Shown here: one piece after another, positions 6,322-7,634 of the stretch | How the letters are laid out: every line of letters begins with the position of its first letter | How positions within the stretch are numbered: position 1 is the first letter of the stretch | Assembly: GCA_015660815.1 (NCBI GenBank) | Contig: JACSDF010000015.1 | Span: 1 to 39,753, forward strand | Direction: 5' to 3' | Origin: Actinomycetota bacterium | Lineage (GTDB): Bacteria; Actinomycetota; Actinomycetes; Nanopelagicales; Nanopelagicaceae | Length of the DNA stretch: 39,753 nt | Position numbers and translations under genes: made by a program | The notes under the pieces: generated by a model | Databases searched by the model: none | The model's input: the letters and a program-made list of their open reading frames with translations, nothing else | Told to the model about the DNA's origin: nothing

Positions 6322-7197
6322 TTAATTCGCTGCCGCGAACACCGCAATTGGCTTAGCAAAACCATCTTTATTGGCCAGCAGTGCAATCAAATCATTGGTA
6401 CCGCTCATAGCTGCATAAATTTCATCCGTTGGATTAGCCGATAATGGGCGGCCGAATGAGAGCTCTTGCCGCTCATCTAACGCTAACTCTCGAACTACAA
6501 AAACTGTGCGTGCCACATCGGCCAGAGCAAGTGTCGTGAATTCGCCACGCTTTAACTGCTCTAATGAGACCGCACCTTCAAGGGTAAATCCAGCAACTCT
6601 GCTTCTGCGAAGTGATGATAAATGCCCACCAACATTTAGGGCATTTCCGCAATCTCGAGCAATCGCACGGATGTAAGTTCCGGCAGAGCAAGTAACTTCA
6701 ATATCGATGTCAATTGTTGTGGCTAAATGACGAATAGCCAGAATATCTAACTGAGAGATTGTGACTTGGCGCGATGCAAGTTCGACGTTTTCACCTGCTC
6801 GAACACGGTCGTAAGCGCGTTCGCCATCGACTTTAACCGCTGAAACCGAACTAGGGCGCTGCATGATGACCCCGCGCATTTTTGCTAACTCAACTTCAAT
6901 CTGGGAATCAGTAATCTGTGAGACGTCACTTCGAGAAACAATTTCGCCATCGGCATCATCGCTGACCGTAGCGATGCCAAGCACCACGGTTGCTTGGTAC
7001 GTTTTATCGCCATCGGTGATGTACTGCAATAAACGTGTTCCATTATTAAAACCAAGTACCAAAATGCCGGTCGCCATTGGATCCAATGTGCCGGCATGGC
7101 CAACTTTTTTTGTTCCCAGTGCACGGCGAGCCACTGCAACTACGTCGTGACTTGTCATTCCTGGCTCTTTATCTACAACCAGAAAGCCGTGCTCGAT
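6322..7197 (-). CDS. truB: tRNA pseudouridine(55) synthase, probable ATC start
   Basis: TruB makes pseudouridine 55 in the T-loop of tRNAs. The catalytic aspartate lies in GHAGTLDPMATG. The first ATG in frame is at 7158, but that start would cut off the conserved motif I strand GFLVVDKEPGMTSHDVV, which is fully encoded just upstream. Back to the in-frame stop there is no ATG, GTG or TTG. An ATC at 7195-7197 has a GGAG ribosome site five bases upstream and would give M-E-H-G-F-L. I therefore place the start there. Alternatives are CTG at 7182, the shorter ATG at 7158, or a base error in an original ATG. The extended frame overlaps the rbfA end. Confidence 0.8.
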   Translation of the reverse strand: MEHGFLVVDKEPGMTSHDVVAVARRALGTKKVGHAGTLDPMATGILVLGFNNGTRLLQYITDGDKTYQATVVLGIATVSDDADGEIVSRSDVSQITDSQIEVELAKMRGVIMQRPSSVSAVKVDGERAYDRVRAGENVELASRQVTISQLDILAIRHLATTIDIDIEVTCSAGTYIRAIARDCGNALNVGGHLSSLRRSRVAGFTLEGAVSLEQLKRGEFTTLALADVARTVFVVRELALDERQELSFGRPLSANPTDEIYAAMSGTNDLIALLANKDGFAKPIAVFAAAN

Positions 7198-7199
7198 GG

Positions 7200-7634
7200 T
7201 TACTCCGACTCGATTATGCGTGGAGCTTTATATGGATCTTCTCCCCCGGCATACGTTGCGTTCTTACGCAGGGCAGCAACTTCGGCATCTTGTTCATGAA
7301 CTCGTGCAAGAAGTGAATCAAGTGCTTTAGCGCTTTCGGGCAGACCATCTTCAAAGAACTCAATCGAAGGAGTGATCCGCAAGCCAAGTTCGCGACCAAG
7401 GGCCGAACGAATCGCACCCTTTGCACTCTCTAACGCTGCCGCAGTTGATGCGCGGGCATCATCATCGCCCAGCACAGTATAAAAAACCGAGGCCATTTGT
7501 AAATCACCAGTGACTCGCGCATCAGTGACAGTGACAAAGCCAAGACGCGGATCTTTAATCTTTGTCTCGAGTATCTGTGCCACTACCACTTTGATGCGGT
7601 CAGCAACTTTTAACGTACGGTGTGATGGACTCAT
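7200..7634 (-). CDS. rbfA: 30S ribosome-binding factor A
   Basis: RbfA is a cold-shock assembly factor that binds 16S rRNA in the immature 30S subunit. The 144-residue protein has the KH-like core with [13 protein letters not shown] near residues 10-22, [27 protein letters not shown] (33-59) and [12 protein letters not shown]. It starts three bases after the infB stop and ends just before the proposed truB start, inside the infB-rbfA-truB transcription unit. Confidence 0.95.

Follow-up and report, generated by a model that had tools for sequence, protein, structure and literature searches.

A conserved ATC at the expected start of truB in one subclade of Candidatus Planktophila suggests a non-canonical start codon

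Our results support a model in which truB of this actinobacterial genome starts weakly at AUC in coupling with the upstream gene rbfA, with a low output that would fall when IF3 is abundant; we put the probability of this explanation as a whole at about 0.85. The window, meaning the whole stretch of 39,753 nucleotides that was analysed, is an entire contig (C45) of a 1.585-Mb, 64-contig genome and carries truB on the minus strand, within a stop-to-stop frame at 6322..7227 of its list of open reading frames. Read along that strand, the start region is ...GAG TCG GAG TAA CC ATC GAG CAC GGC TTT CTG GTT..., and ATG, GTG and TTG are absent from the truB frame between the upstream in-frame stop and the ATG at 7158-7156. 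The initial annotation, which named no strand, had stated that no canonical start lies between the in-frame stop and motif I of TruB (GFLVVDKEPGMTSHD), that this motif is encoded upstream of the first ATG, and that an ATC stands five bases after GGAG. All of this is borne out when the frame is read on the minus strand, where motif I starts before the first ATG and includes it. A near-cognate codon at a normal distance from a Shine-Dalgarno match is a property of genes with starts of the infC kind, and truB shares it (Table 1).

Table 1. Features around the start of truB in the window
Feature	Position	Strand	Basis or remark
truB, ATC to stop, 291 codons plus stop	6322..7197	-	Initiator expected to be fMet
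ATC, inferred truB start codon	7195..7197	-	Position and conservation in relatives
GGAG, Shine-Dalgarno-like, 5 nt before ATC, inside rbfA	7203..7206	-	Sequence
rbfA; stop TAA 7202-7200 ends 2 nt before ATC	7200..7634	-	Open reading frame and sequence
Predicted hairpin, truB +15..+38, CUGG...CCAG stem	7160..7183	-	Kept in ATC genomes and sisters
First in-frame ATG, codon 14, inside motif I	7156..7158	-	Start that a gene caller restricted to ATG, GTG and TTG would choose

To read this codon across Candidatus Planktophila, we searched 135 of its genomes, of which 110 yielded TruB, and read one locus in each of these 110 at its 5′ end, scoring a canonical start as missing when none lay within 25 codons before motif I. 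It is missing in 36 of the 110 genomes, the window included, and each of these 36 carries ATC as the third codon before motif I (codon -3). The codon before this ATC varies (ATC in 30 genomes, otherwise ACC, as in the window, AAA, ACG, AAC and, in two, GTC), so that the 36 genomes share only the second ATC. Each of the other 74 genomes does have a canonical start, the nearest being at codons -2 to -8 relative to motif I; 35 of these carry ATG at exactly codon -3, the others GTG, TTG or ATG nearby. Canonical truB starts were also found in all 20 relatives from other genera of the family (15 from one genus and one each from five others), which were sampled from about 153 with a match. These data speak to the simple alternative raised in the initial annotation, namely that a sequencing, assembly or single-strain error hides a true ATG, and to its proposal that the codon be checked in relatives. 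It could be argued for an error that the window is a single contig of a fragmented assembly and that ATG so often holds the start position elsewhere in the genus. However, the genomes without a canonical start are many separate assemblies, the complete genome of IMCC19121 (CP015605.1) among them, and this refutes the error, to which we assign practically no chance. Since all 36 genomes without a normal start have ATC, and close relatives thus do not uniformly carry ATG, the comparison indicates that the ATC is a kept feature rather than a sequencing error, and the proposal of a real ATC start gains support.

The product read from the ATC is a TruB over the whole length of the family. It matches TIGR00431 at 224.6 bits (cut-off 151.45), with protein residues 3-215 aligned to positions 2-210 of the 210-position profile, and it accounts for the one TruB_N match in the genome, where no second match was found. 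The PDB chains 1sgv, which we take to be TruB of M. tuberculosis, and 1r3f and 1k8w, presumably both from E. coli, align from query residues 4, 3 and 3, respectively. Residue 2 of 1r3e, presumably TruB of T. maritima, lies on query residue 2, so that the ATC falls on residue 1 of that chain. Between the ATC and the first ATG, the codons of the 36 genomes vary mostly silently: the Gly codon occurs as all four synonyms, Glu as GAG or GAA, Phe as TTT or TTC, Leu as CTG or TTG, and Val as three synonyms at each of two places, and replacements are few (GAT in 2 genomes, ATA in 3 and GCG in 1). Because of this pattern we conclude, from the genomes compared, that the codons following the ATC are translated and that translation begins upstream of the first ATG. 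In L011, L012 and L018 one additional base brings the rbfA stop into frame immediately ahead of ATC ATC GAR CAC, so in these three genomes translation must begin after that stop.

The same evidence bears on whether a shortened TruB is made from a downstream start, either the ATG at codon 14, which is present in all 36 genomes, or the CTG at codon 6, which is present in 35. CTG is a weak start in other bacteria. However, one of the 36 has TTG where the others have CTG, and mostly silent variation marks the codons that such a protein would lack. Furthermore, given that the family profile and three solved TruB chains align from residue 3 or 4, a start at the ATG would remove the first part of motif I together with what is presumably the first strand of TruB. 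A Shine-Dalgarno match lies 5-7 nt before the common ATC in all 36 genomes (GGAG in 22, AGGAG in 1 and AGGA only in 13), about 20 nt from the CTG. We therefore consider a downstream start very unlikely. Gene callers limited to ATG, GTG and TTG would nonetheless be expected to report, throughout the subclade, a TruB that is 13 residues short and lacks the first part of motif I. In the 30 genomes with two ATCs the exact start could be the earlier one, a position that reads ACC in the window; the Shine-Dalgarno match would be too close for that codon.

The spacer from the rbfA stop to the ATC is 2 nt in 32 of the 36 genomes, 3 nt in 3 and unreadable in 1, and stop and start thus lie within the few nucleotides expected for termination-reinitiation in all 35 that could be read. 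In the 74 genomes with canonical starts, the nearest start can precede the rbfA stop by up to 14 nt or follow it by up to 34 nt, and in 10 of them it is at 2 nt. With two genes so nearly contiguous, and with ten open codons in the truB frame of the window ahead of the ATC, reaching into rbfA, TruB might have no start of its own and instead arise by frameshifting or stop-codon readthrough as a continuation of RbfA. We judge this highly improbable: the frame relation varies, and with a mixture of 2-nt and 3-nt spacers frameshifting would have to serve one group and readthrough the other, which argues against a fixed mechanism. In addition, the truB frame has stops about five codons upstream in several genomes (for example L004, L016 and L017), and a conserved slippery run was not seen by eye.

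The canonical start of truB was lost, probably once, in one subclade of Planktophila, and AUC has been kept since. On a maximum-likelihood tree of 80 TruB proteins, out of 81 loci taken for it, the 29 ATC rows require one change, against a mean of 23.8 for shuffled rows; the branch that unites them has a low SH-aLRT value of 27, and its two halves have values of 92 and 94. Reversion to ATG would take one base change and is seen in none of the 36 genomes, nor does any have ATT or ATA. Codon usage at this position was compared with the rest of the gene in 29 full-length truB genes, which have 134 columns with an invariant amino acid. Seven of the 132 invariant columns other than Met and Trp use a single codon, and 6 of these 7 fall within the first 12 codons. 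The ATC at the start position is fixed in all 29 genes, as against two or three codons in each of the 7 other invariant Ile columns. Such conservation across species beyond coding needs is also found in genes with starts of the infC kind, and the fixity of AUC, for which none of the 36 genomes substitutes AUU, AUA or AUG, speaks for selection acting on this very codon.

A different account of the same codon is that ATC is used without regulatory meaning, coupling to rbfA having made the start codon nearly irrelevant so that loss of the canonical start drifted to fixation. The nearby rbfA stop fits this account, as does the strong dependence of re-initiation on short distances, though in three E. 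coli pairs a 2-nt spacer is reported to have already cost 5-70% relative to native overlaps (PMC10666635). Against drift stand the invariance of the ATC while other Ile codons vary, and the unusual fixity of the neighbouring CAC and of the first truB codons. On balance we think drift unlikely, though deserving of real weight.

Synonymous diversity is low across the first ten truB codons. Counted from motif I, the first nine usable columns have a mean of 0.179 in 28 ATC rows, a value equalled or undercut in 2 of 209 windows of columns. For 12 sister rows that start with GTG or ATG the matching value is 0.201 (1 of 202), and for 25 more distant ATG/TTG rows it is 0.520 (70 of 196), all three groups having been picked from the TruB tree. 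Part of this constraint can be accounted for by a predicted hairpin at +15..+38, in which UCUGGU pairs with RCCAGG. Its six pairs, from 15-38 to 20-33, are predicted in all 36 ATC genomes and in all 14 sister genomes with canonical starts, and the mean energy of the segment +13..+42 is -9.10 kcal/mol in the former, -8.83 in the latter and -3.72 in the other 60 genomes. Codon choice is compatible with the hairpin: its Leu codon is CTG in 35 of 36 genomes, and further along these genes CTG accounts for only 107 of 815 Leu codons. Of 2,000 random synonymous sequences, 63 attain the -10.2 kcal/mol of the window and 600 the value of the weakest member, so the effect is moderate, and the alignment gives no covariation support because the pairs are nearly invariant. 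Since sisters with canonical starts share the hairpin, it is probably older than the ATC start. The expected 30S footprint ends just before this position, which makes a role of the hairpin in initiation plausible. A larger fold that adds downstream pairing (z -2.39) did not persist when the alignment was folded, and Rfam gave no match to a known RNA family over the truB start region. The only Rfam match was an Actino-pnp RNA elsewhere in the window (RF01688, 4943-5012 on the minus strand, 55.5 bits against a gathering threshold of 47.7), at the upstream end of the pnp frame.

In the model that we favor, with truB starting weakly at AUC, this codon would be read by the ordinary initiator tRNA with a third-base mismatch, giving a protein that begins fMet-Glu-His-Gly-Phe-Leu. 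The AUC would be reached by way of the GGAG or AGGA site 5-7 nt upstream and the end of rbfA 2-3 nt away. Ribosomes would finish rbfA at its stop and a fraction would restart at AUC or, alternatively, fresh 30S subunits would bind GGAG and start there with fMet-tRNA; the closeness of the rbfA end to the AUC suggests that initiation is probably partly re-initiation. The hairpin, lying just past the 30S subunit, may help to place the ribosome. TruB output would then be low and coupled within an operon that also holds infB and rbfA, and it would be set by start-codon fidelity, falling with abundant IF3 as it does for infC. The genome has an ordinary-looking initiator tRNA (L213) with GGG/CCC in its anticodon stem, which we take to be the initiator feature (ARAGORN, 30 of the 39 tRNA places). 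We also considered a special initiator tRNA with the anticodon GAU; within the same 30 places there is only one tRNA-Ile(GAT), and on our reading it has no initiator features. As to how weak such starts can be, AUA and AUU are reported to reach about 10% of the AUG level in S. aureus reporters (PMC13009471), and an ATT start in E. coli is quoted at about 0.3% of ATG (PMC10666635).

The gene for IF3 itself, infC, also lacks a canonical start in the window's genome (contig C39, 72181-72693, minus strand, L223). Its start region reads ...AAGGAG CACACA GTC AGC ACT GAA CCA CGC ATT AAT GAT. In the best 30 of 113 genus genomes with IF3, the aligned start codon is GTC in 20 and ATC in 10 and sits after AAGGAG or GGGAG at normal spacing; among these best 30, the open frame has no canonical start before the R-I-N-D motif in 13, and in 17 a canonical codon occurs farther upstream, at least 13 codons before that motif. 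No report of a GTC start of infC was met in the passages covered, and sigR of Streptomyces is described as the first documented GTC start to its authors' knowledge (PMC5472188). The same paper describes IF3 as a repressor of non-canonical starts in Streptomyces, including the GTC of sigR, and quotes a 3- to 15-fold rise for non-canonical starts when IF3 is defective in fidelity. Extra IF3 is reported to lower re-initiation in E. coli at a reporter site without a Shine-Dalgarno sequence (PMC2268962). By analogy, truB may be exposed to IF3 twice, through its non-canonical start and through an rbfA that ends 2 nt away, although unlike that reporter it has a Shine-Dalgarno match; IF3 control of truB appears likely. 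The non-canonical infC of the same genome strengthens this link, as far as comparison of genes can, and does not prove it.

These considerations raise the possibility of a regulon read by IF3 through start codons, in which infC (GTC or ATC), truB (ATC) and perhaps comEC would be held down together and the hairpin would form part of the truB signal. We regard this as tentative and rather doubtful. If it were true, TruB output, and hence tRNA pseudouridine 55, would track IF3 and ribosome supply. TruB recognises a T-loop motif as its target, and the G-G-U-U-x-x-A of the hairpin partly resembles it; in the boldest form of the regulon reading, TruB would, by analogy with that target, bind the hairpin and control its own weak start. 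To look for similar genes, the window was compared with IMCC19121 over 32 gene pairs, and 115 kb of contig C39 with IMCC19121 over 114 pairs, some of them shadow frames of the rRNA operon. Read by eye, these 32 and 114 pairs gave truB and infC as the only genes whose coding sequence extends beyond every canonical start; the other pairs listed showed short stretches or mismatches outside third positions, which we read as ribosome-binding sites or overlaps between genes.

Experiments have characterised very few non-canonical start codons in bacteria, according to PMC5472188, and infC is reported to start with AUU in E. coli, ATC in Streptomyces and AUA in S. aureus (PMC5472188, PMC13009471). Like infC, truB is a translation-machinery gene with a near-cognate start. 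Unlike infC, it does not encode the fidelity factor, so no direct autoregulatory loop follows; it closely follows rbfA, and among the genomes read its ATC is confined to one subclade of one genus. The GTC start of Streptomyces sigR (Feeney et al. 2017, PMC5472188) is another conserved non-canonical start in an actinobacterium that escapes standard prediction, with two differences: repression of sigR by IF3 was proven by mutation and immunoblot, whereas truB is known from comparative sequence, and the sigR site is an extensive AGGAGGTG, whereas truB has GGAG, AGGAG or AGGA. In S. aureus, cvfC1 (AUU) and ccpN (AUA) are likewise described as having conserved non-canonical starts outside infC that lower output; unlike truB, they come with extended Shine-Dalgarno sites and ribosome-profiling evidence, and re-initiation does not come up for them in the passages covered (PMC13009471). 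The very short distance from stop to start places truB within the measured coupling range of termination-reinitiation pairs, but the E. coli pairs in the passages covered are native overlaps or AUG reporters, whereas the truB start is non-canonical and follows a 2-3 nt spacer (PMC10666635, PMC2268962). An ATC or AUC start is mentioned in two bacterial papers (PMC10210955 and PMC10303841), and no earlier report of a non-canonical truB start was found among the open-licence PMC papers listed. A conserved AUC start in truB would therefore join those of infC, sigR, cvfC1 and ccpN, with the gene being new. Its origin can be traced on a tree, a built-in control is offered by sister species whose ATG or GTG stands at this codon or close to it, and a relative with a complete genome, IMCC19121, is at hand. 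With infC as a partner in the same genome, truB would allow a test of whether IF3 controls a group of genes by way of their start codons.

Three further observations concern neighboring lineages and genes. In a separate lineage (L072, L086, L088, L093 and L094; 67-70% TruB identity), motif I is preceded by GTT GTG ATT GCG CAC; the GTG is a canonical candidate, the position of the ATC reads ATT, and a purine-rich run ends 5 nt before this ATT. This lineage is possibly a second shift towards a non-canonical start. The 3′ end of rbfA (window 7200-7257, minus strand) is unusually fixed at the nucleotide level, with GGGGGAGAAGATCC in 18 of 19 aligned relatives, a fixity that is partly due to coding and perhaps to more than coding. 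Finally, a comparison of IMCC19121 with another genome of the set (G132; 186 pairs) was too similar to inform, yet it pointed to a comEC-like gene (Pfam Competence), which in the window's own genome is locus L334 (contig C2, 12954-14102, minus strand). In 29 of 30 loci, ATG, GTG and TTG are missing ahead of its conserved D-Y/F-R motif and first hydrophobic stretch, and in these 29 the stop of an upstream open reading frame (TAA or TAG) overlaps an NTA codon two codons before the motif. In one locus (L308) the upstream frame and comEC are fused in a single frame, and the comEC pattern could reflect a frameshift, a fusion or another non-canonical start.
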